Positions 13,771 to 63,780 of a stretch of DNA of 64,000 bases are shown here, piece after piece. The position numbers and the translations under genes are program-made. Location: positions 62,001 to 126,000 of the forward strand of contig NZ_BMCR01000011.1 in the NCBI RefSeq assembly GCF_014635285.1. The letters are read 5' to 3'. Under the pieces are notes generated by a model. The model was given only the letters and a program-made list of their open reading frames with translations, was not told the origin of the DNA and ran no database searches. How positions within the stretch are numbered: position 1 is the first letter of the stretch; each line of letters opens with the position of its first letter. Source of the DNA: Stappia taiwanensis. Lineage in GTDB: Bacteria > Pseudomonadota > Alphaproteobacteria > Rhizobiales > Stappiaceae.

Positions 13771-13809
13771 TCGCGCCGCGCCAGCCTGACTGATAAGGAG
13801 ACCTTCGCG

Positions 13810-15129: not shown

Positions 15130-15140
15130 GAAACGCGGAG

Positions 15141-17773: not shown

Positions 17774-17844
17774 CGCGTCGCCCCCGTTGTTTCGACCGAC
17801 ACGGTTACACAGCATATCGGTTGACACAATCAAATTATTCGTCA

Positions 17845-17873: not shown

Positions 17874-17893
17874 ATGCGCTTTGGGAGGAGCCG

Positions 17894-19210: not shown

Positions 19211-19225
19211 CCGCCGACCGGTCTT

Positions 19226-19252
19226 CCTCCCGCCGCTGTGTCCGGCGGGAGG
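19226..19252 (+). terminator. Intercistronic stem-loop after the sugar-binding protein gene
   Basis: A perfect 10-bp stem, arms CCTCCCGCCG and CGGCGGGAGG, with a 7-base loop, 15 bases after the stop and without a U-run. Its place between binding protein and permease genes matches the malE-malF pattern, where a hairpin stabilises the upstream message or attenuates the rest. Confidence 0.62.
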
Positions 19253-19333
19253 CCCCTTGTCTCACCTCACCCTGCCTTTGCCTTCGCCAGACCGGGCCGA
19301 ACCGCTGCCACCCGTCAGGAGCTTGCCGCGCCG

Positions 19334-21087: not shown

Positions 21088-21090
21088 GAC

Positions 21091-22182
21091 ATGGCCGAGG
21101 TCACCCTCAGGAAAATCGTCAAGAGCTACGGCGCGCTGGAGGTGGTGCATGGCATCGACCTCGACATCGCCCACAATGAATTCGTCGTCCTGGTCGGTCC
21201 GTCCGGCTGCGGCAAGTCCACCACCTTGCGGATGATCGCCGGGCTGGAGGAGGTCTCCGGCGGCGAGATCGCCATCGGCGGGCGGGTGGTCAACACCCTG
21301 CCGCCGCGCGCCCGCAACATCTCCATGGTGTTCCAGAACTACGCGCTCTACCCGCATATGACGGTGCGCGAGAACCTCGGTTTCAGCCTGAAGATCGCCG
21401 GCCGGCCGCCGGCGGAGATTGACAAGGCCACCGACGAGGCGGCGGCGATCCTCGGGCTTGCCGACTACATGGACCGCACGCCGGGCGAATTGTCCGGCGG
21501 CCAGCGCCAGCGGGTGGCGATGGGGCGGGCCATCGTCCGCCATCCGGATGTGTTCCTGTTCGACGAACCGCTGTCGAACCTTGATGCCAAGCTGCGCACC
21601 CAGATGCGGGTCGAGATCAAGAAGCTGCATCAGAAGGTGAAGACCACAATCGTCTATGTCACCCACGATCAGGTGGAGGCGATGACCCTGGCCGACCGGA
21701 TCGTCATCATGAAGGACGGCCATATCGTCCAGACCGGGACGCCGCTGGAGGTGTTCGAGCGGCCGGCCAACACCTTCGTCGCCACCTTCATCGGCTCGCC
21801 GCCGATGAACCTGGTCGATGGCGTGGTCGCGGGCGGTGCGGTGCGCTTTGCCGGCGATGTCAGCCTGCCGGTGCCGCCGGCCTTTCGCGGCCGGGTGCAG
21901 GAGGGCCAGCGGGTCACCTACGGTTTTCGCGCCGACAACCTGATGCCGGCCGGCCATGCCATGACCGGGATCGGCGAGACGGCCGAGATCGACCTGACCA
22001 TCGCCCTGGCCGAACCGCTCGGCGCGGAAACCATTCTCCTGTCGGAGCTCGCCGGGGTGGAGATCCAGGGCAAGATGTACAACCCCCGCCCGGTGGCCGC
22101 CGGCGAGCGGCTTTCTTGCCTGCTCGCCCTTGATCACGCCCATCTGTTCGACGCCGAAACCGGCGCCAGCCTCAGGACCTAG
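21091..22182 (+). CDS. ABC sugar transporter ATP-binding protein (UgpC/MalK type)
   Basis: A 363-residue ATPase. Walker A is GPSGCGKST (36-44), the Q-loop lies in [13 protein letters not shown], the signature is [14 protein letters not shown] and Walker B is [12 protein letters not shown]. The C-terminal TOBE/OB domain (about 240-363) is typical of CUT1 transporters. It powers the two permeases just upstream. It is followed after three bases by the dehydratase gene, so transport and catabolism are transcribed together. Confidence 0.96.
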
Positions 22183-50826: not shown

Positions 50827-52677
50827 TCAGCTCAGCGCGGCATGACCGTAGCTGATGGCCGACTGCATGGTCTTGATCACGCCGAACGCATCCCGGAGAT
50901 GGTTGCGCTCCAGCTCCGACAGGCTGTTCGGAGCCATGAAGTTATCCGGTTTCTGGCCGGCGCGCACCTGCCGCGCCTGATGGGCGAGGCGAATGTTGCA
51001 GATCAGGTCATAGGCGTCGAGAAGATCGCTGCCGCCGGAAGGGCTGAGCACGGGGGTGTCGCGCGCGGCGATCAGCCGGTCGCGGGTGTTGGCCGGTTCG
51101 AGCCCTGCTTGCAGCGCATAGAGCCGGGCCAGATCGACGATCGGCACGACACCGGAGTGTTTCAGGTCGACCGTGTGCTTGTGCTCGCCCGAGCGGATCA
51201 GGGCAAAGCCCCGGAAAAGGCTGAGCGGCGGGGTGTGTTTCAGGGAATTGGCGGTCATGTGCGCGCGAAAGATCGAGTTGCGCCGGGCCTTGTCCAGGGT
51301 CGCGCGGTGCATGCCGGCATAAAGGCTTTCCTCGCCATGGATCGGCCGCAGGTCGAACATGACGCTGGCCAGCATCTGCGCCATCGGATCGGGCCGGGCG
51401 ATCCAGCCGTCGAAGTAGCCCTTCCAGACCGACACCGGCTGCCGCCAGCGCGGATTGGTCGCCATCATGTCGCCCGGACAATAATAGTAGCCGCAGGCGT
51501 CCAGCCCATCGCTGACGAAGCGGGCGAAGTCAGCAAACCAGGCGTCATGCTCTTCAGGAACAAAGGCGTCGTCGAGGATCAGGCAATTGTCCTGGTCGGA
51601 CACGCCGGTCTGCTCGCACCGTCCCTGCGAGCCGCAGGCAAGCCAGAGATAGGGCACGGGCGGCGGGCCGAGATCGGCCTCGGCCAGCTGGATCAGCCGG
51701 CGGGTCAGGGCATCGGTGACGCTGGTGATCAGATGGCCGATCCGATGCGCCTCGACGCCAAGGCCGACGAGCTTGGCAAGCAGGCGCGGCACCGTTCCGA
51801 CCACGGCGGCAAGGTCGGCGATCTCGGTCAGACCGCCAATGTCGGAAATGATCGCCACCGCCGACAGGGACTGGCGCTGAATGAGGTTGGTGCGGGTCAG
51901 GATGCCGATGGGCCGGCCATCATCGACGACCGGCAGATGGCCGATGCCGTGCGAGCTCATGGCCAGCAGTGCCTCGAACAACAAGGCTCCCGGGGCCAGG
52001 GACAGGGGCGTGGGAGTGACCACCTCGCCGATCGGCAATTGCGGATCGCGGCCCTCGGCAAGCACCCGGGTGGTGAGGTCGCTGGTGGTCAGGATGCCGT
52101 CGAGGTGGTCCTTCGCGCCGACCAGGACGCAGGAGATGCCCCGGTCGCGCATCACTTCCGCCGCGGCCCTGGCGCTGGTGTTCGCCGGCAGGATCACCGG
52201 TGCAGGCATCATCACATCGCGGATCTCGGCGAGCCCCAGGGCGGCGCCGTTGTCGGGGTTGGCGGCGGGGCGGCGCTGGGGAGTGTTGCGCAGCCGGTCG
52301 AAATAGGCGCCAAAGGAGGGGTGGCGCTCCAGCAACTGGCGAAACACGGTCACTGGAAGGCGCAGGATGGTGGTGTCGCTTTCCGCGACCGCCCGATGGG
52401 CGGACCGACCGTCGCGCAAGAGGCTGCGGGCGGCGAAGATTTCGCCGGGCACGGAGCGGGAAATCAACCGTCCTTCGGGAGAATAAAGGTCGACCACGCC
52501 GTCACGAACGATGTGCAGCGCGTCCAGCGGGGCGTCGATGTCGAGGATCTCGGCGTCCGCCGGATAGCTCTGCGGATCGAGCAGGCCGGAGAGGGTGTCC
52601 AGCGCGGAGGCGGGCAGCAGGTCGAAGGGGTGATGGCGGGAAATGAAGCTGTGCAGCGCGGCCGGATCTGCGGTCAT
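50827..52677 (-). CDS. cNMP-binding, CBS pair and DUF294 nucleotidyltransferase protein
   Basis: A 616-residue signalling protein. It has a cyclic-nucleotide-binding-like domain (about 15-130), two CBS motifs (about 155-275: MMPAPVILPANTSARAAAEVM and GIGHLPVVDDGRPIGILTR), a GlnD-like nucleotidyltransferase at about 349 (GSQGRCEQTGVSDQDN, with the SDxD Asp pair) and a DUF294 C-terminal domain. Such proteins are usually encoded beside the sodium-solute symporter of the next gene and are thought to control it by nucleotide sensing. A 26-base palindrome separates the two. Confidence 0.9.
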   Translation of the reverse strand: MTADPAALHSFISRHHPFDLLPASALDTLSGLLDPQSYPADAEILDIDAPLDALHIVRDGVVDLYSPEGRLISRSVPGEIFAARSLLRDGRSAHRAVAESDTTILRLPVTVFRQLLERHPSFGAYFDRLRNTPQRRPAANPDNGAALGLAEIRDVMMPAPVILPANTSARAAAEVMRDRGISCVLVGAKDHLDGILTTSDLTTRVLAEGRDPQLPIGEVVTPTPLSLAPGALLFEALLAMSSHGIGHLPVVDDGRPIGILTRTNLIQRQSLSAVAIISDIGGLTEIADLAAVVGTVPRLLAKLVGLGVEAHRIGHLITSVTDALTRRLIQLAEADLGPPPVPYLWLACGSQGRCEQTGVSDQDNCLILDDAFVPEEHDAWFADFARFVSDGLDACGYYYCPGDMMATNPRWRQPVSVWKGYFDGWIARPDPMAQMLASVMFDLRPIHGEESLYAGMHRATLDKARRNSIFRAHMTANSLKHTPPLSLFRGFALIRSGEHKHTVDLKHSGVVPIVDLARLYALQAGLEPANTRDRLIAARDTPVLSPSGGSDLLDAYDLICNIRLAHQARQVRAGQKPDNFMAPNSLSELERNHLRDAFGVIKTMQSAISYGHAALS

Positions 52678-52727
52678 GAATGCGCCTTTCGCCGGAAAGC
52701 GGATCGGGCAGGCCGGTCCGGGAGGGG

Positions 52728-52753
52728 TGAACCCCGCCCATGGGCGGGGTTCA
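52728..52753. terminator. Perfect 26-base palindrome between symporter and DUF294 genes
   Basis: TGAACCCCGCCCA is followed at once by its reverse complement. It can fold as a 10-11 bp hairpin in the message. It lies between the symporter stop and the start of the DUF294 gene, so it may attenuate or process the shared transcript. No U-run follows. Confidence 0.65.
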
Positions 52754-52777
52754 GGCTTGTCACGGTGACCGACGGCC

Positions 52778-54565
52778 TTAGTGGTCGACGGCGGCCCCGG
52801 CTCCGGAGGGAACGCGAATGCTCTCCACCAGTTCCTGGATCTCCTGCGGCGGGGCTTCCGACGCATTGGAGACGAAATAGGCAACGGCGAAGTTGATGAT
52901 CGCGCCAACCGCACCGAAGGCCTCCGGCGAGATGCCGAGCAGCCAGTTGGATGCATTGTTGGGCAGCATATTGGTTCCCGGAATGAAGAACCAGCCCTTG
53001 TAAATGAAGATGTAGACCACGGTGATGATCAGACCCGACAGCATGCCGGCGATCGCCCCCTTGGAGTTCATCCGCTTGGAGAAGATGCCCAGCATCAGCA
53101 CCGGGAACAGGGACGCGGCGGCGATGCCGAAGGCCAGTGCCACCACCTGTGCCGCGAAGCCCGGCGGGTTGAGGCCGAGATAGGCGGCGATCATGATCGC
53201 CACGGCCATGGACAGACGGGCCGCCAGAAGCTCTCCCTTTTCCGAGATGTTCGGATTGTAGATGCTCTTGATCAGATCGTGCGACACGGCCGAGGAAATG
53301 GCCATCAGGAGACCGGCCGCCGTGGACAGCGCCGCGGCAAGACCGCCGGCGGCCACCAGGGCGATCACCCAGTTGGGCAGGTTGGCGATTTCCGGGTTGG
53401 CGAGCACCATGATGTCCCGGTCAACCTTGACCATTTCGTTGCCCTTCCAGCCGAACTCGGCTGCCTTGGCGTTAAAGGCCTCGTTCTTGTCGTTGTAGTA
53501 CTGGATCCGGCCGTCGCCGTTTTTGTCTTCGAACTTGAGAAGACCGGTGGTCTCCCAGCTCTTGAACCAGCGCGGACGCTCGTCATAGGCAAGATTGCCA
53601 TCCGGAGCGCCGATCTCGCCGGTCTGGATGGTGTTCATCAGGTTGAGCCGCGCCATGGCACCGACGCCCGGAGCGGTGGTGTAGAGAAGGGCGATGAAGA
53701 CCAGCGCCCAGCCGGCGGACCAGCGGGCATCGGCCACCTTCGGCACCGTGAAGAAGCGGATGATCACATGCGGCAACCCGGCGGTGCCGATCATCAGCGA
53801 CAGGGTGAAGAGGGTCATGTTGAGGACACTGAGTGGATCGCCGCTTTGGGCTGTGTACTCATTGAACCCCAGATCGGTCACCACCTGGTCAAGCGTGGCG
53901 AGAAGCGGCTGGCCGCTGCCCACGTGGTCGGAGAACAGGCCGATCTGCGGCAGAGCATTGCCGGTCAGGGCCAGCGAGATGAAGATCGCCGGAACGGTGT
54001 AGGCAAGGATCAGCACGCAATACTGCGCCACCTGGGTGTAGGTGATGCCCTTCATGCCGCCAAGCACGGCGTAGATGAAGACGATGCCGGTGCCGATCAG
54101 GAGACCGGTGGAGGCATCCACCTCCAGGAAGCGCGAGAAGGCAACGCCGACGCCCTTCATCTGGCCGATCACATAGGTGATCGAGGCGACGATCAGGCAG
54201 ATCACCGCGACGATGCGGGCGGTCTGCGAGTAGAAGCGGTCGCCGATGAATTCCGGCACGGTGTATTTGCCGAACTTGCGCAGATAGGGCGCAAGCAACA
54301 TGGCCAGCAGCACGTAGCCGCCGGTCCAGCCCATCAGGTAGAGCGAGGCGCCATAGCCATTGAAGGCGATGATGCCGGCCATGGAAATGAAGGAGGCGGC
54401 CGACATCCAGTCCGCCGCGGTGGCCATGCCGTTGGTGACCGGGTGAACCCCGCGGCCGGCGGCATAGAATTCACTCGTCGATCCGGCACGGGCCCAGATG
54501 GCGATGCCGATATAAAGCGCGAAGGACGCGCCGACGACGATATAGGTAAGTGTCCTGAGATCCAT
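52778..54565 (-). CDS. Sodium:solute symporter (ActP-like, VC_2705 subfamily)
   Basis: A 595-residue SSS-family transporter with about 13 helices. FYAAGRGVHPVTNGMATAADWMSAASFISMAGIIAFNGYG is the family start, GTAGLPHVIIRFFTVPKVADARWSAGWAL the sodium-site region, and a soluble insert with EDKNGDGRIQYYNDKNEAF resembling an EF-hand lies in the middle. The subfamily takes up acetate or related short acids. The partner DUF4212 subunit is encoded just before it and the CBS-DUF294 regulator just after. Confidence 0.94.
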   Translation of the reverse strand: MDLRTLTYIVVGASFALYIGIAIWARAGSTSEFYAAGRGVHPVTNGMATAADWMSAASFISMAGIIAFNGYGASLYLMGWTGGYVLLAMLLAPYLRKFGKYTVPEFIGDRFYSQTARIVAVICLIVASITYVIGQMKGVGVAFSRFLEVDASTGLLIGTGIVFIYAVLGGMKGITYTQVAQYCVLILAYTVPAIFISLALTGNALPQIGLFSDHVGSGQPLLATLDQVVTDLGFNEYTAQSGDPLSVLNMTLFTLSLMIGTAGLPHVIIRFFTVPKVADARWSAGWALVFIALLYTTAPGVGAMARLNLMNTIQTGEIGAPDGNLAYDERPRWFKSWETTGLLKFEDKNGDGRIQYYNDKNEAFNAKAAEFGWKGNEMVKVDRDIMVLANPEIANLPNWVIALVAAGGLAAALSTAAGLLMAISSAVSHDLIKSIYNPNISEKGELLAARLSMAVAIMIAAYLGLNPPGFAAQVVALAFGIAAASLFPVLMLGIFSKRMNSKGAIAGMLSGLIITVVYIFIYKGWFFIPGTNMLPNNASNWLLGISPEAFGAVGAIINFAVAYFVSNASEAPPQEIQELVESIRVPSGAGAAVDH

Positions 54566-54581
54566 CGAATTTCCCCCCGGT

Positions 54582-54842
54582 CTATTCTTCGACGCCGTAC
54601 TTCTTGTCCATGGCGTTCATGCGCCAGGCATAGAAGAAGATCAGGACCAGAAAGACGTAGATCGATCCTTGCTGGGCGAACCAGAATCCGAGATCGCTGC
54701 CGCCGATCTTGATCGAAGTCAGCAGGGGCCGGAACAGAATGCCCAGGCCAAACGAGACAAACGCCCAGACGATCAGGCAGTTCCGGATCAGGCTCACATT
54801 GGCCTTCCAATAGGCCTGGCCGGAGTCACTTTCGCTGCTCAT
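54582..54842 (-). CDS. DUF4212 small subunit of the sodium:solute symporter
   Basis: An 86-residue protein with two helices: YWKANVSLIRNCLIVWAFVSFGLGILF and FWFAQQGSIYVFLVLIFFYAWRMNAMDKKYG. DUF4212 proteins always accompany VC_2705-type symporters and probably form a heteromer. GGAGGAAAT lies before the ATG. The gene starts the operon. Confidence 0.95.
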   Translation of the reverse strand: MSSESDSGQAYWKANVSLIRNCLIVWAFVSFGLGILFRPLLTSIKIGGSDLGFWFAQQGSIYVFLVLIFFYAWRMNAMDKKYGVEE

Positions 54843-55213
54843 GCAATTTCCTCCACTTTGTTCTTTCCGTTCGCGCGGGGGGAAGGGCATCTGCATGGTT
54901 TGCGGCGACTGGGCCGGAGGGAGCGCTGGCGCCACCTTCCAAGGTCCCGATCCGCCCGACGCAATCGGCGCTCCTCTCGCCATGCGTCATCGCCCTTGTC
55001 CACACGTGCCGATTGATGGATCCGCTCCGCTCGACCGGCCAGCAATGGACCGCGCAACTGCCGCACGGTCATCACCATGATCTCGACAATACAGGCAAGT
55101 CCGGAGCGGGCGAACCGCGACATTCGGGTAATACGGCAGTGACAAGAGGACCGGGAGTCGCGCAGGGGCGAGTGGAGAAAGCCCCATTCAGGTCATTGAA
55201 TTTTCGAGAAAAA
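54843..55213. other. Intergenic region upstream of the DUF4212-symporter operon
   Basis: About 370 bases between two minus-strand genes. Open frames here are short, Arg-rich and without family resemblance. I found no RNA gene, strong hairpin or convincing promoter; the operon promoter must lie here on the minus strand. Confidence 0.55.
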
Positions 55214-55657
55214 CTACTTCTTGGCCGGGGCGCGGTCGATCAACCGGGTGAGGGCGGTGCGCAGGGTGTCGATTTCCTCAAGACCGATGGCCGCGATCAA
55301 CCGGTCCTGGTGTTTCTGGGCGCGCGCAATCAGTTCGTCTGCCCGGGCTTCCCCTTGCGGGGTGAGCTCGACCCAGACCCGGCGCCGGTCGTCGGGGTCG
55401 GTGGTGCGGGTGAGGAGCTGCTGGCCGACCAGCTTGTCGACCGTCTTGCTGATCGCCGGCTGGTTGGCAAGGCAACTGCTGGTAAGCTCGCCGATGGTCA
55501 GCCCGTCGGTTCCCTTCAAGGAGGCAAGAACCCGCCAGACGGCGACGGAGACCCCGCTGGCGCGGACCTGGTCGTGAAACTCGGCGCTGGCGACGCTGGA
55601 GGCGCGGGCCAGAAGATAGAGCAGATAGCCGTCGACGAACCGGTGCTCTGTGCTCAT
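55214..55657 (-). CDS. MarR family transcriptional regulator
   Basis: A 147-residue winged-helix regulator: SVAVWRVLASLKGTDGLTIGELTSSCLANQPAISKTVDKLVGQQLLTRTTDPDDRRRVWVELTPQG, with the DxRxxR wing. NicR and PicR, which control nicotinate and picolinate degradation, are also MarR proteins. It overlaps the flavin reductase stop by four bases and together they lie divergent from the NicX-like operon. It is the probable local repressor, released by a pathway compound. Confidence 0.93.
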   Translation of the reverse strand: MSTEHRFVDGYLLYLLARASSVASAEFHDQVRASGVSVAVWRVLASLKGTDGLTIGELTSSCLANQPAISKTVDKLVGQQLLTRTTDPDDRRRVWVELTPQGEARADELIARAQKHQDRLIAAIGLEEIDTLRTALTRLIDRAPAKK

Positions 55658-56151
55658 GGGCTGGAAATCCCATAGTGCGGCGTTGCATAGCGGCCGCCAT
55701 GATAGATCAGCGGTTCGCGATCGGCGTGGTCGAAGGCCTCGACCTGCCCGAGAAACACCACGTGGTCGCCCCCATCCACCCGGGTGTTGTTGCGGCATTC
55801 GAACACGGCGGTGACGCCGGCCAGCACCGGGACGCCGCAGGTGCCCAGGTGCCAGTCGACACCTTGGAAACGATCCTGCGCCGGGCGGGCGAAGCGGTTT
55901 GACAGCCCGGTCTGGTCGGAGGCGAGAATGTTGATCGCGTAATGCTCGGCGTTCTCGAAGGCGGCCATGTTTCGCGAGCTGCGGGCAAGGCTCCACAGCA
56001 CCATCGGCGGGTCGAGCGACACCGAGTTGAAGGAATTGGCGGTCAGGCCCAGCGGCCGGCCCGAGGCGTCGACGGTGGTAACGATCGTCACCCCGGTGAC
56101 GAAGCGGCCCAATGCGCGGCGCAGGCTGCGGTGATCGGTCGACATCGCCAT
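55654..56151 (-). CDS. Flavin reductase (NAD(P)H:FMN oxidoreductase, split-barrel type)
   Basis: A 165-residue protein of the HpaC/ flavin reductase family: RRALGRFVTGVTIVTT, GLTANSFNSVSLDPPMVLWSLARSSRN, and the end GDHVVFLGQVEAFDHADREPLIYHGGRY. It makes reduced flavin for a separate monooxygenase. The only flavoprotein candidate nearby is the acyl-CoA dehydrogenase-fold protein of the divergent operon. GAGGA five bases before the ATG supports the start. Confidence 0.93.
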   Translation of the reverse strand: MAMSTDHRSLRRALGRFVTGVTIVTTVDASGRPLGLTANSFNSVSLDPPMVLWSLARSSRNMAAFENAEHYAINILASDQTGLSNRFARPAQDRFQGVDWHLGTCGVPVLAGVTAVFECRNNTRVDGGDHVVFLGQVEAFDHADREPLIYHGGRYATPHYGISSP

Positions 56152-56194
56152 CCGGATCCTCGAGTTCGTTCAGAGTTCAAAATATTCCTTTTCA

Positions 56195-56200
56195 TATAAT
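56195..56200. promoter_or_regulatory. Candidate -10 box in the divergent marR/nicX-like region
   Basis: TATAAT matches consensus exactly on the plus strand, but no good -35 stands at 16-18 bases. On the minus strand the overlapping TATTAT (56196-56201) has TTGCAG at 16 bases (56218-56223). Back-to-back promoters sharing this AT-rich patch are plausible, and the surrounding TCAT-N6-ATGA could be a regulator site. Confidence 0.45.
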
Positions 56201-56241
56201 AATGATATTGCTACGATCTGCAAAATTCTTTCTGCATCCTG

Positions 56242-56261
56242 CGCGGAATGGGGGTTCCGCG
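56242..56261. promoter_or_regulatory. Perfect inverted repeat upstream of the nicX-like gene
   Basis: CGCGGAA and TTCCGCG flank TGGGGG. It ends 18 bases before the start codon, just ahead of the GGGAGGGG ribosome site. It could be a MarR operator or a 5' leader hairpin; position and symmetry are the only evidence. Confidence 0.5.
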
Positions 56262-56279
56262 TAATATTGGGAGGGGTGG

Positions 56280-57326
56280 ATGCTGGCAGACCGGATTGAG
56301 GGCAAGTGGATCGAGGCCTTCGCGGCGGTGTTTCGTCTGTGCAAGGTCACTGAGAACGAGACCGTGGCGATCCTGTCGGAAACCCAGTCGCGGCAACTCA
56401 ATGTGCATCTCGCCGAATTGGCGTTGCAGCGGCTCGGAGCAAAGGTGTTTCATGTGGTGGTGCCGACGCCGCGCCAGGACGCGCCGGTGCCGGTGCGCTC
56501 CACCGGTGCCTCCTCGGCGCTTACCGGGCAGGAGGCGGCGATTGCCGGGCTGGCGGCCAGTTCCATGGTGGTCGATCTGACGGTCGATGGGCTGCTGCAT
56601 GCACCGGAATTGCCGCAGGTCATTGCCCAGGGCGCGCGGCTCTTGATGATCTCCAACGAGCATCCGGAGGCGCTGGAACGGCTGGTGCCGGCCGTGCGCG
56701 ACAAGGAGCGGGTGAAAAAGGCGATTGCCCTGTGCAAGGGCGCGGCGCGCATGCGGGTTACCTCTCCCGCCGGCACCGATCTGACAATCGACATGGACGG
56801 CGCCAGCACGGTCGGTGTCTGGGGCTGGTGCGACCGGCCGGGCAGCGTCGCCCATTGGCCGGCCGGGCTGGTGGTCAGTTTCCCCGCCGCCGGCAAGGTC
56901 AATGGCACGCTGGTGCTCGACGCGGGCGACGTCAATCTCACCTTCAAGCGCTATCTGGAGCGGCCGGTCACGCTCACCATCGCCGATGATTATGTCACTG
57001 CAATCGACGGCGAGGGAACGGACGCGGAGCTGACCCGGCGCTATTTCGCCGCCTGGAAGGACAAGGACGCCTATGCGGTGTCGCATGTGGGGTTCGGCAT
57101 GAACGAGGGCGCCCGCTACGAGGCGCTCGCCATGTACGACCAGCGCGAGACCAACGGCACCGAGGTGCGGGCCTTTGCCGGCAACTTCCTGTTCTCCACC
57201 GGCGCCAATGAATTCGCCGGCCGCTACACCAAGGGCCATTTCGACATTCCGGTGCGCGGCTGCACCATCGCGCTCGACGGGGTGCCGGTGGTGAAGGACG
57301 GCAATCTGGTGGAGGATTTGCGGTGA
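56280..57326 (+). CDS. 2,5-dihydroxypyridine 5,6-dioxygenase-like (NicX family)
   Basis: A 348-residue protein matching NicX, an iron dioxygenase with the fold of M29 aminopeptidases. NicX opens 2,5-dihydroxypyridine to N-formylmaleamate. Its iron ligands His, His and Asp correspond to H269 (SHVGFG), H320 and D322 (GHFDIPVRGC); FAGNFLFSTGANEFAGRYTKGH and WCDRPGSVAHWPAG are further matching blocks. Automatic annotation may call it a leucyl aminopeptidase. The gene after it encodes a NicD-like hydrolase, as in nicotinate clusters. Start preceded by GGGAGGGG; stop overlaps the next GTG. Confidence 0.85.
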   Translation: MLADRIEGKWIEAFAAVFRLCKVTENETVAILSETQSRQLNVHLAELALQRLGAKVFHVVVPTPRQDAPVPVRSTGASSALTGQEAAIAGLAASSMVVDLTVDGLLHAPELPQVIAQGARLLMISNEHPEALERLVPAVRDKERVKKAIALCKGAARMRVTSPAGTDLTIDMDGASTVGVWGWCDRPGSVAHWPAGLVVSFPAAGKVNGTLVLDAGDVNLTFKRYLERPVTLTIADDYVTAIDGEGTDAELTRRYFAAWKDKDAYAVSHVGFGMNEGARYEALAMYDQRETNGTEVRAFAGNFLFSTGANEFAGRYTKGHFDIPVRGCTIALDGVPVVKDGNLVEDLR

Positions 57327-58114
57327 GCGTGGCCGGGATCGTGCGGCCCGCGCCTGGCGGGTCGCCGGTCATCCTGTTGCATGGCATCGGTGCGGGCGCT
57401 GAGATGTTCGCGCCGCAGCTCGCCGGTCTTGCGGCCAGCCATGACGTGATCGGCTGGAACCTGCCGGGCTACGGCGGCACCAGGCTTGCCGGGTCGATGA
57501 GCTTCGAGAGCCTGTCGGACGGGCTGTTGGCGCTATTCGATGAGCTGGGGCTGACCCAAGCGGTGATCGTCGGCCATTCCATCGGCGGTATGGTGGCGCA
57601 GGAGTTCACCGCCCGCTATCCAGAGCGGGTGCGGGCGCTGGTGTTGTCGGCCACCACCTCCGCCTTCGGCAGCCGCGACGGGGCCTTTCAGAAGAAATTC
57701 GTTGCCGACCGGCTGGCGCCGCTCGATGCGGGCCGGACCATGGCGGAGCTCGCCGGGCAGTTCGTGCCGGGCCTCGTCGGGTCGGCGGCGCACCCGGATG
57801 CGGTGCCAGCGGCCATGGCCGCCATGAGCCGGGTGCCGGACGACACCTTCCGCGCGGGGATCCGCTGCCTTGCCACATTCGACCGGCGGGCGGATCTCCC
57901 CCGGATCTGCGTTCCCACGTTGCTGATCGCCGGGGAGGAGGACCGCAACGCGCCGGAGCCGACCATGCGCAAGATGGCCGAACGGATCGCCGGCGCGCGC
58001 CTTGTGGTGCTGCCCGGCATCGGTCATCTCGCCCCGCTGGAATGCCCGGAGGTCTTTACCGATCATTTGCGGGGGTTTCTAGCGTCCCTGCCGGAGGAGG
58101 AGAGCCGATCATGA
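57323..58114 (+). CDS. Alpha/beta hydrolase (NicD-like N-formylmaleamate deformylase candidate)
   Basis: A 263-residue alpha/beta hydrolase with nucleophile S86 in GHSIGG, acid D207 in GEEDRNAP and H235 in GIGHLAPLE. The oxyanion loop is LLHGIGAGAEMF. NicD, of similar length, deformylates the NicX product to maleamate. The direct overlap with the NicX-like gene (GTGA) makes that role likely. A 3-oxoadipate enol-lactonase-like hydrolase for another ring-cleavage product is the alternative. Confidence 0.83.
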   Translation: MSVAGIVRPAPGGSPVILLHGIGAGAEMFAPQLAGLAASHDVIGWNLPGYGGTRLAGSMSFESLSDGLLALFDELGLTQAVIVGHSIGGMVAQEFTARYPERVRALVLSATTSAFGSRDGAFQKKFVADRLAPLDAGRTMAELAGQFVPGLVGSAAHPDAVPAAMAAMSRVPDDTFRAGIRCLATFDRRADLPRICVPTLLIAGEEDRNAPEPTMRKMAERIAGARLVVLPGIGHLAPLECPEVFTDHLRGFLASLPEEESRS

Positions 58115-59382
58115 ACGCCGCCGACCCAGATACGTTCGACCTGGATGCCCCGATTTTCGATCCGGATGCGTTTCGTCTGACCGATCAGGAGCGGGAGTTG
58201 ACGGCGCTGGCCCGGCGCACCGGCAAGGCCCGGTTCGCCCCGCGCGCGGCGGAGTTCGACCGCGATGCCCGCTTTCCCACCGAGAACTACCGGGACATGC
58301 ATGAGGCGGGCCTGCTGGGCGCCTGCGTGCCGAAGGAAAACGGTGGGCACGGGGCGCCATTCCGCACCTATATGATGACGGCGGCGGAAATCGGCCGCTA
58401 CTGCGGCTCCACCGCGCTGACCTGGAACATGCATGTGTGTTCCTGCCTGTGGACCGGCGCCCTGACCGACGATCTCGACATGACGGCGGAGCAGCGCGCC
58501 AAGCACATGGAGCGGCGGGCCGTTCACTACGCGCGCATTCTCGATGAGGGGGCGATCTACTCCCAGCCGTTTTCCGAGGGCGGCGCGGCGGCGGCCGGCG
58601 CGGTGCCGTTTTCCACCAGTGTCCGGAAGGTCGATGGCGGCTGGCTGATCAACGGCAAGAAGATCTTCGCCTCGCTCTCCGGTCACGCGGACTACTACGG
58701 CGTCTTGTGCGGCGAGATGAAGGAGGGGGCGCGGCCTTCGCGCCGGGACACCATGTATATCGCCGTGCCGGCCCGGGCCGAGGGGGTAGAGGTCGTCGGC
58801 GACTGGGATCCGCTGGGCATGCGCGGCACGGTCTCGCGCACCCTGCTGTTCAAGGATGTGTTCGTCTCCGAGGATGAGCAACTGATGCCGCGCGGCGTCT
58901 ATTATCAGGCAGCGAGCCGCTGGCCGCACATGTTCATGACCCTGTCGCCGACCTACATGGGCATTGCCCAGGCGGCGTTCGACTTCACCGTCAAGTATCT
59001 GCGCGGCGAATGGCCGGGCCTGCCGCCGGTCAAGCGGCGGATGTTCCCGACCAAGCAGATGGGTGTCGCCCAGATGCACCTGATGCTGGAGCAGACCAAG
59101 GCGCTGTGGTTCCAGGCGATCACCGAGGCGGGGCCCGATCCGTCGCGCGAACAGATGCTGCGCGCCTGGGCCGCCCATTACACGGTGATGGAAAACGCCA
59201 ACGAGATCTGCCAGCTCGCCATTCGCACCTGCGGCGGCCAGTCGATGCTGAAGACCCTGCCGCTGGAGCGGCTTTACCGCGACAGCCGTTGCGGCGCGCT
59301 GATGCTGCCCTGGACGGCGGAAATCTGCCTTGACCGGATCGGCCGGGAGAGCCTTTACCTGCCGGGGGAAGACGACACGTGA
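58111..59382 (+). CDS. Acyl-CoA dehydrogenase-fold flavoprotein lacking the usual catalytic Glu
   Basis: A 423-residue protein of the acyl-CoA dehydrogenase superfamily: RFAPRAAEFDRDARFPTENYRDMHEAGLLGACVPKENGGHGA, then YSQPFSEGG and NGKKIFASLSGHADYYGV. In true dehydrogenases the base lies in a YEGT-like motif near the C-terminus; here the segment reads RDSRCGALMLPWTAEI (P400-W401-T402) without Glu. The RxxFG flavin-binding motif is also replaced (YLRGEWPG); E300 there might be a relocated base. The fold also includes two-component monooxygenases such as HsaA and DszC. With a flavin reductase nearby, hydroxylation is a fair alternative to CoA-ester oxidation. ATGA overlap with the hydrolase gene. 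Confidence 0.82.
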   Translation: MNAADPDTFDLDAPIFDPDAFRLTDQERELTALARRTGKARFAPRAAEFDRDARFPTENYRDMHEAGLLGACVPKENGGHGAPFRTYMMTAAEIGRYCGSTALTWNMHVCSCLWTGALTDDLDMTAEQRAKHMERRAVHYARILDEGAIYSQPFSEGGAAAAGAVPFSTSVRKVDGGWLINGKKIFASLSGHADYYGVLCGEMKEGARPSRRDTMYIAVPARAEGVEVVGDWDPLGMRGTVSRTLLFKDVFVSEDEQLMPRGVYYQAASRWPHMFMTLSPTYMGIAQAAFDFTVKYLRGEWPGLPPVKRRMFPTKQMGVAQMHLMLEQTKALWFQAITEAGPDPSREQMLRAWAAHYTVMENANEICQLAIRTCGGQSMLKTLPLERLYRDSRCGALMLPWTAEICLDRIGRESLYLPGEDDT

Positions 59383-60920
59383 TGTCGATCGACAGCTGGA
59401 TCGAGGCCCATGCACGGTTCACGCCGGACAAGGCGGCGATCCGGTTTGCGTCGGGCGACCTGACCTATGCACAGCTCGCCGATGCCATTGGCGGGGCGGC
59501 GCACTGGCTGGCCCGAACCCAGGGCATCGGCCGGGGCGACCGGGTGGCGTTTCTCGGCACCAACGCGCCGGACATGCTGGTGCTCTTGTTCGCCGCCGCT
59601 CGCCTCGGCGCGATCCTGGTGCCGCTCAACTGGCGTCTGGCACCGCCGGAACTGGCTCATGCGGTCCGTGACAGCGGGGCGGCGTTGCTGGTGCACCAGC
59701 CGGCATTTGCCGCAACTGTGGCGGAGATGGCGGGGCTTGGCGCGGCGCCGCGGGTCCATGTGAGCGATGCCCGCTCCGGCGGGCTTGCCACGCTCCTGGC
59801 CGGCGGCGCCGGGTTGTCGGCTGAAGAAGGCGAAGGCGGGGCGGAAGATCCGCTGCTGATCGTCTACACCTCCGGCACCACCGGCCGGCCGAAGGGGGCG
59901 GTGCTGTCCCAGCGGGCAATCTCCGCCAATGCGCTGAACGCCCTGCACATGCATGACATGACCAGCCGGGACCTGGTGCTGACCGTGCTGCCGATGTTCC
60001 ATGTGGGCGGGCTCAACATCCAGACCACACCGGCGCTCTATGCCGGGGCTACGGTGTTGTTGCATGAGCGTTTCCATCCCGAGAGCTGTCTGGAGGCGAT
60101 TGCCGGCGAGCGGCCCGACCTCACAGTGCTGGTGCCGGCGACCTTGTCGGCGCTGATCGCCCATCCGCGCTGGAGCGACGCGGATCTGTCCTCCTTGCGG
60201 GCGATTGCCACCGGCTCCTCCGATGTGCCCCGGCATCTGATGCAGGCGTTTTGCGAACGCGGCGTGCCGGTGATCCAGATCTACGGCTCGACCGAGACCG
60301 GTCCGGTGGCAATCTACCAACGGGTGCAGGATGCGGCGGAGGAATTCGGCGCCATTGGCCGGCCGGGTCTGCACACCGAAGCGCGGATCACCCGGGACGG
60401 GGAGCCGGCGGGGGTCGGCGAGATCGGCGAGATCGAACTGCGCGGCACCAACATCACCGAAGGCTACTGGAACCGGCCGGAGGCACGAACGGAGAGTTTT
60501 CGCACCGGCGGGTGGTTTCGCACCGGAGATCTTGGGAGCATCGACGCGCGGGGTGTGTTCTGGTTTCGCGACCGGCTGAAGAACGTGATCATCTCCGGCG
60601 GCGAGAACATCTACCCTGCCGAACTGGAACGGGTGCTGGGGGAGCTTGCCCAGGTGGCCGAGGCGGCGGTGGTCGGGGTCAAGGACCCGCAATGGGGCGA
60701 ATGTCCCGTCGCGGTGGTGGTTGCCCGCGCACCGCAGGAACGGGACGCGCGGGCGGTGCTGGAGGGGTTCAACGGCCGTCTTGCCCGCTACAAGCACCCT
60801 AAATCGGTTGTTTTCGTTGAGGAGTTGCCGAGAAATGCCCTCGGCAAAGTGAGGCTGGACCGGGTAAGAAATATGGCGGAGGATGCGCTTGCATCCGGGA
60901 CGGAGACAAAAAAAGCCTGA
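59382..60920 (+). CDS. AMP-dependent acyl/aryl-CoA ligase
   Basis: A 512-residue adenylate-forming enzyme. The P-loop-like motif is YTSGTTGRPKGAV (about 161-173), ending motifs are YGSTETGPV and WFRTGDLGSID, and the catalytic Lys is K489 in PRNALGKVRLD. It activates a carboxylic acid to its CoA thioester. Fatty, aryl and heteroaryl acids are all handled by this family. Its place after the NicX-like and ACAD-fold genes suggests the pathway substrate or an intermediate is used as a CoA ester. The ATG overlaps the previous stop by one base. Confidence 0.9.
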   Translation: MSIDSWIEAHARFTPDKAAIRFASGDLTYAQLADAIGGAAHWLARTQGIGRGDRVAFLGTNAPDMLVLLFAAARLGAILVPLNWRLAPPELAHAVRDSGAALLVHQPAFAATVAEMAGLGAAPRVHVSDARSGGLATLLAGGAGLSAEEGEGGAEDPLLIVYTSGTTGRPKGAVLSQRAISANALNALHMHDMTSRDLVLTVLPMFHVGGLNIQTTPALYAGATVLLHERFHPESCLEAIAGERPDLTVLVPATLSALIAHPRWSDADLSSLRAIATGSSDVPRHLMQAFCERGVPVIQIYGSTETGPVAIYQRVQDAAEEFGAIGRPGLHTEARITRDGEPAGVGEIGEIELRGTNITEGYWNRPEARTESFRTGGWFRTGDLGSIDARGVFWFRDRLKNVIISGGENIYPAELERVLGELAQVAEAAVVGVKDPQWGECPVAVVVARAPQERDARAVLEGFNGRLARYKHPKSVVFVEELPRNALGKVRLDRVRNMAEDALASGTETKKA

Positions 60921-60961
60921 TTTGCGCCGGTCGCGGAACGATAACAAGGAGAGGGAACTTC

Positions 60962-61975
60962 ATGCGGAAAGTCATTGCAGCGCTGGCGACGGCGGTCACG
61001 CTTGGCCTGGCACCGGCGGCTCTTGCCGACACCACCTTGCGGGTTTCGAACTGGCTTCCGCCCTCGCATCCGATCGTCAAGGACATCCTCGCGCCCTGGG
61101 GCAAGCAGGTGGAAACGGCAACGGACGGCAGGGTCAAGGTGGAGATCATGTCCTCGCCGATCGGCAAGCCGCCGGCTCAGTTCGACCTGATCCGCTCCGG
61201 CGCGGCCGATATCGGCTATGGCGTGCACGGCTATACGCCGGGCCGCTTCAAGCTGACGCCGCTGGTCGAGGGGCCGTTCCTGTCCGACAGCGCCGAGGCC
61301 CTGTCCGTCGCCTACTGGAAGGTGCATGAGGCGATGCTCGCCAAGGCGGAGGAGCACAAGGGCGTCAAGGTTCTGACCGTCTTCACCCATGGCCCGGGCA
61401 TGATCTACACCACCGCCAAACCGGTGGCGAAGCTGGCCGACGCCGCCGGGCTGAAGATGCGGATCGGTGGCGGTATCGTTGCCGAAGTGGCCAAGCGGCT
61501 TGGCATGGTCGGCGTTCCGGCGCCCTCGCCGCAGGTCTATGAAATTCTCGCCAATGGCGTGGCCGATGGCATCCTGTTTCCGGCCGAATCCGTTCCGTTC
61601 TTCCGCATCGAGGAGGTCATTCGGCACGGGGTATCGGTGCCTGGCGGGCTCTACAACACCTCCTTCTTCGTGGTCATGAACGCCAAGACCTGGAACCGGC
61701 TGTCCGATGAGGACAAGGCCGCGATCGACAGCGTCTCCGGCGAGGCAATGGCACGGCTGGCAGGCGCCGCCTGGGATGCGGCGGATGAGGCCGGGCTTTC
61801 CGTGATGACCGAGAAGGGCGTTGCCCTGACCGAGGCCGACGACGCCATGACGGCGGAACTGGCCGAGGCGCTGACCGGCATCGAGGACGGCTTCCTTGCC
61901 GCCGCGCAGGAACGGGGCATCGACGGCAAGGCGGCGCTGGAAATGCTGCGGGCGGAAGTCGACGCGGCCGAATGA
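60962..61975 (+). CDS. TRAP transporter substrate-binding protein (DctP type)
   Basis: A 337-residue periplasmic binder with signal peptide MRKVIAALATAVTLGLAPAALA. The carboxylate-binding Arg is present (R167 in GLKMRIGG). WLPPSHPIVKDILAPWG and SSPIGKPPAQFDLIRSGAADIGYG match the family. It should bind the acid degraded by the operon. Unlike the other two DctP genes here, it overlaps the next gene by four bases and no hairpin follows. Confidence 0.93.
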   Translation: MRKVIAALATAVTLGLAPAALADTTLRVSNWLPPSHPIVKDILAPWGKQVETATDGRVKVEIMSSPIGKPPAQFDLIRSGAADIGYGVHGYTPGRFKLTPLVEGPFLSDSAEALSVAYWKVHEAMLAKAEEHKGVKVLTVFTHGPGMIYTTAKPVAKLADAAGLKMRIGGGIVAEVAKRLGMVGVPAPSPQVYEILANGVADGILFPAESVPFFRIEEVIRHGVSVPGGLYNTSFFVVMNAKTWNRLSDEDKAAIDSVSGEAMARLAGAAWDAADEAGLSVMTEKGVALTEADDAMTAELAEALTGIEDGFLAAAQERGIDGKAALEMLRAEVDAAE

Positions 61976-62469
61976 GCGCCTCTTCTACCAGAACCCCGGG
62001 GTCGAGCGATCCCGAGGGCGTTGCCGGAGTGCTTGCCTGGGGCTTGCGGCTCGCCGCGTCCCTGCTGCTGCTGGCGATGATGATCGTCACCTTTGTCGAT
62101 GTGGTCGGGCGCTATGTCTTCAACGCGCCGCTCGCCGGTGCCTATGAACTGACCGAGGTGCTGCTGGCGCTGGTCGTGTTCATCGGCCTGCCGATCGTCA
62201 CCTTTCGCCGCGAGCATGTCACCGTCGATCTGGTCACCAGCCGGCTGCCTTCCGTGCTGCGTCGGGGCCTTGCGGTGCTCGCCGGGGTGGTGATGCTCCT
62301 GGTGCTGGCGGTGCTGGCCTGGCGGCTCGGGCTTCTGGCCGTCGACTTCACCGATTATGGCGACACCACCGTCAATCTGAAGATCCCGCTCGGCCCCGTG
62401 GCCGCCGTGATGGCGGTGCTGGCCGCCATGTCCGCGCTCGCCGCTCTTCTGGCGCTGTTCCGGCGCTGA
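61972..62469 (+). CDS. TRAP transporter small permease (DctQ type)
   Basis: A 165-residue protein with four helices and the family block FVDVVGRYVFNAPLAGAYELTEVLLALVVFIGLPIVTFRREHVTVDL. It is translationally coupled to the binding protein by ATGA. Confidence 0.93.
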   Translation: MSASSTRTPGSSDPEGVAGVLAWGLRLAASLLLLAMMIVTFVDVVGRYVFNAPLAGAYELTEVLLALVVFIGLPIVTFRREHVTVDLVTSRLPSVLRRGLAVLAGVVMLLVLAVLAWRLGLLAVDFTDYGDTTVNLKIPLGPVAAVMAVLAAMSALAALLALFRR

Positions 62470-62487
62470 AACCTGGACCTCTCTGCC

Positions 62488-63780
62488 ATGGAAACCTGGC
62501 TTCCCGGCCTTGTCATCCTCCTGATCGTGATGTTTGCCGGCGTGCCCATCGCCATGGCGATGGCCGCCGTCGGCGGTCTCGGCCTTGCGGTGATCCTCGG
62601 CTTCCAGCCGGCGATGACCATCGTCGGCCAGACCACCTTCGATACCGGCCTGTCCTATCCGCTCTCGGTGGTGCCGCTGTTCGTGCTGATGGGCAATCTG
62701 GTGACGCGCGCCGGGCTGTCGGACGAGCTTTACGCCGCCTGTCATGCCTGGCTGGGGCATCGGCGCGGCGGTCTGGCGATGGCGACGGCGGTTGCCTGCG
62801 GCGGTTTCTCGGCGGTGTGCGGCTCCTCTCTGGCAACGGCGGCGACCATGGGCAAGGTGGCGCTGCCGCAGATGCGGCGCTACCGCTATGACGACGGGCT
62901 GGCGAGCGGGGTGATCGCCGCCGGCGGCACGCTGGGCATCCTCATTCCGCCAAGTGTCATTCTGGTGCTCTACGGCGTGACCGCTCAGCAGGACATCGCC
63001 CGGCTGTTCATCGCCGGCATCGTGCCCGGACTGCTCGGCGTCCTCGGCTATATGGCGGCGGTGCAGGTGGTGTGCTGGCGCCGTCCGGAGGCGGGGCCGC
63101 GCGCTGAGCGCATGGGATACCGCGACCGGTTCGCGGCGCTTGGCGGGGTCGCCGGCATTCTCTCGCTGTTCGTCTTGGTGATTGGCGGCATCTACGCCGG
63201 CATTTTCACCGCCACCGAGGCGGCGGGCATCGGCGCCACCGGCGCCTTCGTCATTGCGCTGGCCCGGCGCCGGCTGACCTTGCGCACCCTCCTGGAAACA
63301 CTCGCTGATACGGCGGCGACGACGACCATGATGTTCATGGTGCTGATCGGCGCGCTGATCTTTTCCAATTTCGTCAACATCGCCGGCTTGCCCGACTTCC
63401 TGTCGCAGCTGGCGCGGACCTCCGAGCTGCCGGCCTGGGCGATCCTGGCGGCGGTGCTCCTGGTTTATCTCTGCCTCGGCATGGTGCTGGAGAGCCTGTC
63501 GATGGTGCTCCTGACCGTGCCGATCTTCGCGCCCGTCATGGCCGGGCTCGGCTACGATCTGGTGTGGTTCGGCATCATCGTCGTGGTGGTTACGGAGATC
63601 AGCCTGATCACCCCGCCGGTCGGTCTCAATGTCTTCGTGCTGAAGACGGTGCTGCCGGACGTACCGCTGTCGACGATCTTCCGTGGCATCCTGCCGTTCG
63701 TCGCCGCCGATGTGGTGCGGCTGGCCTTGCTGGCGGCGGTCCCGGCGCTGGTCCTCTTCCTGCCGGACCTGATGCGGTAG
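62488..63780 (+). CDS. TRAP transporter large permease (DctM type)
   Basis: A 430-residue DctM-family permease: SYPLSVVPLFVLMGNLVTRAGLSDELY, GGTLGILIPPSVILVLYGVTAQQDIARLFIAGI, IFTATEAAGIGATGAFV and EISLITPPVGLNVFVLKTV. It imports the operon substrate with the two partners encoded upstream. It is the last gene in the operon seen here. Confidence 0.95.
   Translation: METWLPGLVILLIVMFAGVPIAMAMAAVGGLGLAVILGFQPAMTIVGQTTFDTGLSYPLSVVPLFVLMGNLVTRAGLSDELYAACHAWLGHRRGGLAMATAVACGGFSAVCGSSLATAATMGKVALPQMRRYRYDDGLASGVIAAGGTLGILIPPSVILVLYGVTAQQDIARLFIAGIVPGLLGVLGYMAAVQVVCWRRPEAGPRAERMGYRDRFAALGGVAGILSLFVLVIGGIYAGIFTATEAAGIGATGAFVIALARRRLTLRTLLETLADTAATTTMMFMVLIGALIFSNFVNIAGLPDFLSQLARTSELPAWAILAAVLLVYLCLGMVLESLSMVLLTVPIFAPVMAGLGYDLVWFGIIVVVVTEISLITPPVGLNVFVLKTVLPDVPLSTIFRGILPFVAADVVRLALLAAVPALVLFLPDLMR

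Follow-up and report, generated by a model that had tools for sequence, protein, structure and literature searches.

Which acid is broken down by an operon that joins a relative of NicX to a CoA ligase, an ACAD-fold flavoprotein and a TRAP transporter? We address this question for a locus of Stappia taiwanensis, within a stretch of 64,000 nucleotides (the window). The original prediction was the import of a pyridine- or other N-heterocyclic carboxylate, its activation as a CoA ester, oxidation by the ACAD-fold enzyme and opening by the NicX-type dioxygenase. Our analysis keeps this generic scheme and makes the pyridine substrate improbable. Instead, the operon is probably of an IadR-type, auxin-sensing kind and would degrade an indole acid aerobically to the level of anthranilate, with indole-3-acetic acid (IAA) as the likeliest substrate. 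The evidence supports a locus for N-heteroaromatic acids, with a NicX-type iron site, for which we found no description in the literature.

Organisation of the locus

An ORF check and profile searches bear out the gene set and order originally described: the nine genes are intact open reading frames, Pfam backing MarR, Flavin_Reduct, Abhydrolase_1, Acyl-CoA_dh, AMP-binding, DctP, DctQ and DctM (Table 1). Two starts were corrected, that of MarR to 55657 and that of the ACAD-fold protein to 58111, where the ATG lies a little 3' of GGAGGAGGAG. At its stop, the flavin reductase gene shares 4 bases with the MarR gene. Overlaps of the same length join the NicX-like, alpha/beta hydrolase (ABH), ACAD-fold and CoA ligase genes in series, and 41 bases separate the last of these from dctP.

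Table 1 Features of the locus, with positions counted along the window.
Feature	Positions	Strand	Support and predicted role
MarR regulator, predicted IadR (auxin-sensing) type	55214..55657	-	147 aa; PDB matches; binding residues aligned
Flavin reductase	55654..56151	-	PF01613, E 3e-42; would supply FMN/FAD to the ACAD-fold enzyme
Operator-like site, divergent promoter region	56180..56201	+	Also conserved ahead of NicX genes of related loci; similar in iad promoter regions
NicX-family non-heme Fe(II) dioxygenase, cassette clade	56280..57326	+	PDB 7cn3; putative ring cleavage
Alpha/beta hydrolase (ABH)	57323..58114	+	PF00561, E 3e-27; putative deformylase or C-C/thioester hydrolase
ACAD-fold flavoprotein without catalytic Glu	58111..59382	+	Pfam Acyl-CoA_dh domains; putative ring monooxygenase
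Acyl/aryl-CoA ligase	59379..60920	+	PF00501, E 2e-80; would act on the imported acid
TRAP solute-binding protein DctP, aromatic-acid type	60962..61975	+	Pfam DctP; fold comparison
TRAP small permease DctQ	61972..62469	+	PF04290, E 5e-27
TRAP large permease DctM	62488..63780	+	PF06808, E 1e-94

The NicX-like dioxygenase

The NicX-like protein has a sole match in the PDB, the NicX structure 7cn3 (E 7.4e-63), and none in Pfam at 0.01 or in NCBIfam at 0.001. On sequence evidence, its relationship to NicX, an iron dioxygenase, is genuine. The iron ligands H265, H318 and D320 are kept in all 102 aligned proteins of its clade and S302 in 101 of them; H105 and H189 of NicX are kept as well. It had been considered that the protein might be a true M29 aminopeptidase or lack a three-residue iron site. 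At the level of sequence, the conserved ligands speak against the second; as to the first, the M29 profile (PF02073) matches neither this protein nor any other in the host genome, while 4 of 14 control genomes are positive. Relatives of the NicX-like protein carry the database name 'peptidase M29'.

NicX-type cleavage is reported for dihydroxypyridine only, as far as the accessible text of one article goes (PMC7910607). The residue that contacts the 2-OH of this substrate in NicX, E177, is replaced by V, G or I in 102/102 clade proteins and kept in the three canonical proteins compared; E308 is replaced throughout the clade too. The window protein falls inside this cassette clade (100/99), which is separate from canonical NicX. 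The uniform loss of E177 makes a pyridine substrate unlikely.

A pyridine or other N-heterocyclic carboxylate, taken through import, CoA activation, ACAD oxidation and NicX-type opening, would agree with the sole PDB match and with the kept iron ligands and histidines. We nevertheless hold it to be improbable, given the two replaced glutamates, the separation of the clade, the iad-type regulator, transporter and operator-like site, and the repeated linkage to 2-aminobenzoyl-CoA genes described below. In addition, NicE and NicF find no match in the host genome, in a search with no positive control in the same tool; local tblastn with the same queries found homologues in two loci, L063 and L064. 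For homarine or another N-methylpyridine as substrate, a literature search gave no link.

Accompanying enzymes

The catalytic glutamate of acyl-CoA dehydrogenases (E376/E368-type position) is absent from all 19 proteins aligned, 17 from cassettes and two sister proteins; three true-ACAD controls in the same alignment have it. By fold search, the protein is not separable as a monooxygenase or a dehydrogenase. The database name of its relatives is 'acyl-CoA dehydrogenase family protein'. A flavin reductase, such as a two-component flavin monooxygenase would need as its partner, is encoded in the window; it scores 208 bits against NF045919, the reductase of p-hydroxyphenylacetate hydroxylase, under the 340-bit cut-off. 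In one relative, locus L040, the flavin reductase is fused to MarR.

The hydrolase is 44-67% identical to five other cassette hydrolases. As a NicD orthologue it was rejected, with only 22-23% identity to two NicD proteins. Of the names first given to these genes, 'NicX-like' thus holds, with the 7cn3 match and the iron ligands, and 'NicD-like' is too strong. Against the two alpha/beta hydrolases of pAL1, the protein gave no match at 1e-5.

The best PDB match of the CoA ligase is feruloyl-CoA synthetase (8wev/8weu). With 28.6% identity to the tested anthranilate-CoA ligase of pAL1, against 56% for the ligase of the abm-type cluster in the same genome, it was rejected as an anthranilate-CoA ligase. 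Because of this low identity, the cassette ligase probably acts on an acid upstream of anthranilate.

The database names quoted above would suit an ordinary fatty-acid or peptide operon, in which M29 peptidase, acyl-CoA dehydrogenase and long-chain ligase similarities mislead. Such an operon is scarcely credible here: M29 is unmatched in the genome, the NicX iron ligands are kept and the ACAD glutamate is missing in 19/19.

Regulator and transporter

The best PDB matches of the MarR protein are 3cdh, 7kki, 7kfo and 7krh, which are IadR, at 80.6-67.2 bits; the next family scores 48.6. Residues Ser28, His32, Trp45 and Arg46 of MarR_73, which bind IAA, align with identical residues in the window protein, and Ala18 corresponds, by eye, to Tyr. 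The regulator is thus closest to the IadR auxin-sensor type, and its retained residues predict IAA binding. The corresponding pattern S-x3-H-x12-W-R occurs in 28 of 33 cassette MarRs. Beyond the MarR cluster, just two of 1857 predicted proteins carry it, and one of the two is a fusion of flavin reductase with MarR.

The operator-like site precedes the NicX gene and resembles sites in iad promoters. In the scan for its conservation, the loci reported are those beating 30 shuffles. In the comparison with iad promoters, the promoter of L154 ACMR-SDR, taken as a control, likewise outscored most of its shuffles (12 of 1000), which counts against the likeness.

For comparison we used three iad loci of the Variovorax type, from Sulfitobacter dubius (L157), Roseibium aggregatum (L158) and Paracoccus saliphilus (L160). 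The window DctP is 42%, 42% and 52% identical to their DctPs and is closest by fold to aromatic-acid solute-binding proteins, and the window DctM is 56% identical to that of S. dubius. The ABC binding protein of the Bradyrhizobium locus, whose best PDB match is an aliphatic sulphonate protein, showed no connection to IadK2 and was set aside.

The cassette in related genomes

A NicX-like relative is encoded in 588 stretches of the genome collection. Of these we kept 80 loci, 31 of them from Bradyrhizobium or Bradyrhizobiaceae by title and others from genera including Stappia and Roseibium. Among the loci whose NicX belongs to the clade, 109 in total, tblastn, rather than gene calls, finds ABH in 93, ACAD in 96 and the CoA ligase in 88, all three together in 81, flavin reductase in 40, MarR in 33 and DctP in 15; all seven tested genes co-occur in nine. 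These loci are not independent, as the Bradyrhizobium share of the 80 illustrates; at least one genome enters twice (L036 = L091) and some contigs stop within the cassette. The cassette architecture exceeds chance. ABH was missed by tblastn in 16 of the 109 loci, and MarR has no match in 76, most Bradyrhizobium loci included; contig ends explain part of the missing MarR, flavin reductase and ABH genes.

Some members depart from the common pattern. Three loci (L057, L059 and L060) combine NicX with a FAD_binding_3 hydroxylase and lack both ACAD and CoA ligase, which suggests that the NicX clade serves more than one substrate. In some lineages, 3-hydroxyacyl-CoA dehydrogenase genes accompany the cassette. 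Furthermore, 3 of the 28 cassette-clade genomes have iad beside the cassette, and Roseibium aggregatum has both in different strains; with such coexistence, the cassette's substrate need not be IAA. These observations all speak for the same logic applied to another indole acid (indole-3-carboxylate, -propionate, -lactate, -acrylate or an oxindole acid), with IAA at most an inducer. We give this reading a real, if minor, chance; the full tested set of IadR residues contacting IAA and the iad-like DctP favour IAA itself.

Link to 2-aminobenzoyl-CoA genes

On another contig, the host genome carries a full abm-type cluster. Its ACMR fusion is 52% identical to the pAL1 protein; on the opposing side, the NCBIfam name for this fusion is salicylyl-CoA 5-hydroxylase/oxidoreductase, and the pAL1 record is named likewise. 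Among the 109 cassette loci, an ACMR piece is found at 28 and any of three abm genes at 37, in what we count as about six separate lineages.

Across genomes, ACMR is present in 21 of the 28 of the cassette clade, a set that takes in two partial NicX matches (G127 and G191), versus 50 of 357 others (Fisher p 1e-11), counts that leave out 13 of 84 positive genomes with a match to one half of the fusion alone. It was not found in the remaining 7 of the 28, and it is also enriched in genomes with other NicX-like proteins (9/23, p 0.014).

The same end point could be reached from another anthranilate precursor, for instance an acid of the quinoline or kynurenine type; the regulator, for all its likeness to auxin sensors, would then be a broad aromatic-acid sensor. 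According to the available text on it, the pAL1 quinaldine pathway ends in anthranilate and has an alpha/beta hydrolase acting on N-acylanthranilate, and in Sagittula tryptophan enters the same abm cluster by way of kynureninase. This origin seems to us quite improbable, as molybdenum hydroxylase, tryptophan dioxygenase and kynureninase are all absent among the locus genes and MarR is nearest to IadR.

Proposed route

The case for an indole acid rests on the IadR-type MarR, the iad-like DctP, the operator-like site and the abm linkage. In the pathway that we propose, the TRAP system would import the acid and the CoA ligase would convert it to indole-3-acetyl-CoA. Hydroxylation of the pyrrole ring would fall to the ACAD-fold flavoprotein, supplied by the flavin reductase. 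Next, the NicX-like Fe(II) enzyme may open the ring at the bond next to the nitrogen, C2-C3 of the indole, yielding an N-formyl or N-carboxy 2-aminobenzoyl derivative from which the alpha/beta hydrolase would complete the release. Anthranilate or 2-aminobenzoyl-CoA would finally pass to the abm-type cluster elsewhere in the genome.

The accessible parts of two articles (PMC9613470, PMC11630574) describe two gene sets for aerobic auxin degradation, iac and iad; the second article recalls an old report of 2-formamidobenzoylacetate in IAA breakdown. We tentatively suggest, at slightly less than even confidence, that the cassette is a third genetic type beside iac and iad, found in marine and soil Alphaproteobacteria, many of them Bradyrhizobium. 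Its NicX-family enzyme would open the pyrrole ring of an IAA derivative and its hydrolase trim the product to anthranilate, so that the cassette would be a candidate for the genes of the unassigned route, dating from 1961, by which IAA yields anthranilate via 2-formamidobenzoylacetate. If true, predictions of which bacteria remove auxin around roots and algae shift, NicX-type cleavage gains a second ring system and the 2-formamidobenzoylacetate report (as recounted in the available text of PMC11630574) becomes testable.

In titles and abstract openings of literature outside subscription journals, no paper connected the degradation of indole or auxin with a relative of NicX. The available part of a B. 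japonicum IAA transcriptome study (PMC3788728) names bll3410, bll3411 and blr4158 and leaves the cassette locus unnamed.

Comparison with known systems

With iad, the cassette shares the predicted IadR-type MarR, a TRAP transporter whose DctP is related (42-52% identical), the operator-like site, a CoA ligase and the expected end product, anthranilate being that of iad in the accessible text of PMC9613470 and PMC12633357. It differs at the entry step: iad starts with the Rieske oxygenase IadCDE, in place of which the cassette has NicX, the ACAD-fold protein and the alpha/beta hydrolase. IadD of S. dubius finds no match in the host genome at E<=1e-60, and matches 27 of 385 class genomes, five at 60-71% identity. 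The cassette ligase is only 27-30% identical to three IadF proteins and, unlike in iad, thiolase (IadG) and SDR are absent among the locus genes.

The iac set (Pseudomonas putida 1290 type) resembles the cassette by description, the accessible text of PMC11373566 listing IacA as an acyl-CoA dehydrogenase beside a flavin reductase, IacG, and a MarR. Also by description, iac is set apart by its product, catechol, and by the Rieske-type IacCD, and the window MarR is closest to the IadR type. For such a Rieske enzyme, the query was the related IadD, with no match in the host genome at the threshold given above. With the nic genes of Pseudomonas putida (NicX-NicD), the likeness lies in the NicX fold family, the iron site and a hydrolase gene beside NicX; the replaced E177 and E308 and the distant hydrolase set the cassette apart, as do the added CoA ligase, ACAD-fold protein and TRAP transporter.

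The 2-aminobenzoyl-CoA pathway is proposed to lie downstream of the cassette and is not part of it. The iaa pathway of Aromatoleum, likened by description, also leads from IAA to 2-aminobenzoyl-CoA in the available text of PMC9613470 and is anaerobic. Finally, the iif/ind indole operons, in the accessible descriptions (PMC12538310, PMC6221969), are without a NicX relative, a substrate CoA ligase or a TRAP transporter; there, a flavin-dependent oxygenase and a reductase take indole towards anthranilate, and one strain has a 2-aminobenzoyl-CoA cluster downstream.

Layout of the locus

All nine genes named in the original prediction are intact and lie in the order claimed, as judged by an ORF and domain check of the window. 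Their overlaps also stood, but two boundaries did not: the extent of MarR and the start of the ACAD-fold gene are corrected in the table. Overlaps of four bases occur at the junctions of the NicX-like dioxygenase with the alpha/beta hydrolase, of the hydrolase with the ACAD-fold flavoprotein, and of the latter with the CoA ligase; 41 bases separate the ligase from DctP. The window genome comprises 4.42 Mb on 20 contigs. Among the 80 loci listed, the nearest relatives of the NicX-like protein (80-82%) come from four Stappia and one Rhodobacteraceae MAG.

Coordinates of features in the window and in loci gathered for comparison (L-numbers)
Feature	Record	Position	Remarks
MarR gene	window	55214-55657	shares 4 bases with the flavin reductase stop
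ACAD-fold gene	window	start ATG 58111
Candidate operator	window	56180-56201	22 bp, conserved upstream of NicX
ORFs upstream of the locus	window	50827-54983	translations resemble an acetate-permease-like set (CBS-domain protein, sodium:solute symporter, small membrane protein)
Flavin reductase-MarR fusion	L040	4937-5929	one 330-aa ORF
Stretch of NicX and FAD_binding_3/Rng_hyd_C hydroxylase	L057	9359-13215
Opine-dehydrogenase-like and 3-hydroxyacyl-CoA dehydrogenase genes	L140	11044-13128	accompany the cassette
Same pair	L076	17629-19715	accompany the cassette
Same pair	L119	14591-16667	accompany the cassette
Solitary cassette-type ACAD gene	L159, Dolichospermum plasmid MAG	7995-9242	57% to the window protein
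2-aminobenzoyl-CoA cluster	L163, Sagittula stellata plasmid	12001-21923	includes tryptophan 2,3-dioxygenase and kynureninase

A distinct clade of NicX-like dioxygenases

The NicX-like protein matches neither a Pfam nor an NCBIfam family, and its sole PDB match is NicX itself (7cn3, E 7.4e-63). A peptidase assignment of the locus was dropped because the M29 family is unmatched in the window genome. NicX-like matches occur in 52 of 385 genomes of the class; by our count 28 of these, two through partial matches, hold the cassette clade. In a tree of 54 rows, the 42 cassette-clade rows form one group (support 100/99), outside which fall the 12 other NicX-like rows, including 7cn3.

The iron ligands of NicX are described as H265, S302, H318 and D320, and H105, H189 and E177 are named among its substrate-binding residues (PMC7910607). 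Across 102 clade proteins the ligands are conserved in 102, 101, 102 and 102 cases, respectively, and H105 and H189 are each retained in all. The E177 position is V, G or I throughout, and E308 is never retained. Three canonical proteins carry E at both positions, one of them (L033) with F for H105. In our reading, a hydroxylated indole could supply the iron-bound hydroxyl carbon, the adjacent CH and the nitrogen as its C3, C2 and N1, and its fused benzene ring would sit where E177 held the 2-OH.

The flavoprotein and the flavin reductase

The catalytic glutamate, present in three true-ACAD controls, is absent from 17 cassette and two sister ACAD-fold proteins. The top sequence matches of the window protein are 5gj7 and 5z8t, the latter titled flavin-containing monooxygenase. 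Since the fold comparison draws no line between monooxygenases and dehydrogenases, we infer rather than observe that it is a monooxygenase. In L040, flavin reductase and MarR are fused with the IadR-like residue pattern kept, recalling the layout of the p-hydroxyphenylacetate hydroxylase reductase (NF045919); this suggests that the ligand may gate flavin reduction besides transcription.

Regulator, transporter and operator-like site

The four top PDB matches of MarR are 3cdh (Ruegeria) and three Variovorax-type entries, with a top score of 80.6 bits versus 48.6 for the next family. Entries 3cdh and 7kfo are IadR, the auxin sensor of the iad degradation genes (PMC9613470); by alignment, 7kki and 7krh are this protein as well, or a mutant form of it. 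R. pomeroyi IadR binds indole-3-acetate (IAA) with a KD of 0.237 uM, and MarR_73 is described as contacting the IAA ring through Tyr15, Ala18, Trp45, Arg46 and Val65 and the carboxylate through Ser28, His32 and Arg46 (PMC9613470). The window MarR aligns exactly at Ser28, His32, Trp45 and Arg46 and, in our reading, has Tyr at the Ala18 position. The contact pattern recurs in 28 of 33 cassette MarRs, being absent in L037, L059, L109, L111 and L112.

MarR relatives occur on 28 plasmid records; the three neighbourhoods opened (L157, L158, L160) are all iad loci, and their TRAP DctPs share 42%, 42% and 52% identity with that of the window. The best matches of the DctP model are aromatic-acid SBPs. 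An opine-dehydrogenase family gene adjoins the iad genes of L160.

At most 101 loci were scanned for the operator-like site, and 22 score at least 13, with a matrix built from the window and seven of those 22 (L036 and L091 are one genome). Five iad intergenic regions hold like sites, whose scores were reached by 1, 13, 2, 5 and 0 of 1000 shuffles. In comparison regions the figures were 224/1000 (L163) and 12/1000 (L154 ACMR-SDR, at a lower score of 9.1). The L154 result indicates that AT-rich promoters can score, so the resemblance to iad promoters is supportive only. The published MarR_73 operator is given as 24 bp.

Substrate and proposed pathway

Assignments to iad and to the nicotinate (nic) pathway were dropped, the window genome having no match to the Rieske subunit IadD at E<=1e-60, nor to NicE or NicF at 1e-3. 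The other auxin set, iac, is set aside less firmly, the search having covered its Rieske-type IacCD only through the related IadD. Cassette and iad occur together in 3 of 28 genomes, and in different strains of one species; another indole acid is therefore a serious rival to IAA as substrate.

For IAA, the acid would be imported, activated to the CoA ester, hydroxylated on the ring, cleaved at C2-C3 by the NicX-type enzyme and hydrolysed down to the anthranilate level. In the iad pathway, too, the acetyl side chain is believed to be activated by a CoA ligase (PMC12633357). The scheme gives no step to the opine-dehydrogenase-like and 3-hydroxyacyl-CoA dehydrogenase genes that accompany the cassette in some lineages. 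Oxygen at C3 would give an N-formyl product, with the hydrolase as deformylase as in NicX-NicD; this better fits the E177 loss and the conserved hydrolase. Oxygen at C2, where IacA reportedly places it (PMC9613470), would give a carbamate and, after loss of CO2, 2-aminobenzoylacetyl-CoA; this better fits a 3-substituted indole. A 1961 report in which IAA is converted to anthranilate by way of 2-formamidobenzoylacetate is listed as poorly classified (PMC11630574). The analysis also drew on PMC6221969, PMC12538310, PMC10374108, PMC11373566, PMC3788728 and PMC3534580.

Linkage to 2-aminobenzoyl-CoA metabolism

A fused FAD_binding_3 and Oxidored_FMN protein and its partners adjoin the cassette in L038, L039, L042, L131 and many Bradyrhizobium loci. 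NCBIfam names it salicylyl-CoA 5-hydroxylase. However, in the window genome its neighbouring ligase shares 56% identity with the anthranilate-CoA ligase tested from the quinaldine plasmid pAL1, whose own fusion protein bears the same name, and in the Sagittula kynureninase cluster the annotation salicylyl-CoA 5-hydroxylase/oxidoreductase looks misleading. On these sequence grounds we call it a putative 2-aminobenzoyl-CoA monooxygenase/reductase (ACMR), of a cluster whose gene name we take to be abm.

Of the 109 loci, 28 have an ACMR piece and 37 at least one of ACMR, AbmA and AbmECH; all but six of the 37 fall in L106-L150, mostly Bradyrhizobium, so we count about six separate linkages. Other abm genes occur in L097 and Shinella L034; in Shinella some 21 kb separate the fusion gene from NicX on one replicon, and in class genome G191 the two share a contig. 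The window genome holds a whole abm-type cluster on contig C4. With genome size and kinship uncontrolled, ACMR is found in 21/28 cassette-clade genomes versus 50/357 others (Fisher p 1e-11) and in 9/23 other NicX-like genomes (p 0.014).

Variants of the cassette

Hydrolase, ACAD and CoA ligase are all present in 81 of 109 loci, and two variants lack the ligase. On Aminobacter, Ensifer and Shinella plasmids (L031, L032, L034), NicX and ACAD accompany a longer hydrolase, fused to a Polyketide_cyc2 domain in Ensifer, with a glutamine-synthetase-like gene, flavin reductase, APC permease and TetR; this variant is perhaps for an indole amine. L057, L059 and L060 yielded neither ACAD nor CoA ligase; in these, a FAD_binding_3/Rng_hyd_C aromatic hydroxylase follows NicX (by domain scan in L057 and L060). 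L057 and L059 retain a hydrolase, and L060 has none between NicX and hydroxylase. We read the common core as flavin monooxygenase, NicX and hydrolase.

The 17-kb stretch from the cyanobacterium Dolichospermum has no annotated cassette partner for its ACAD gene. L057 has a small YCII-domain gene between NicX and the aromatic hydroxylase.
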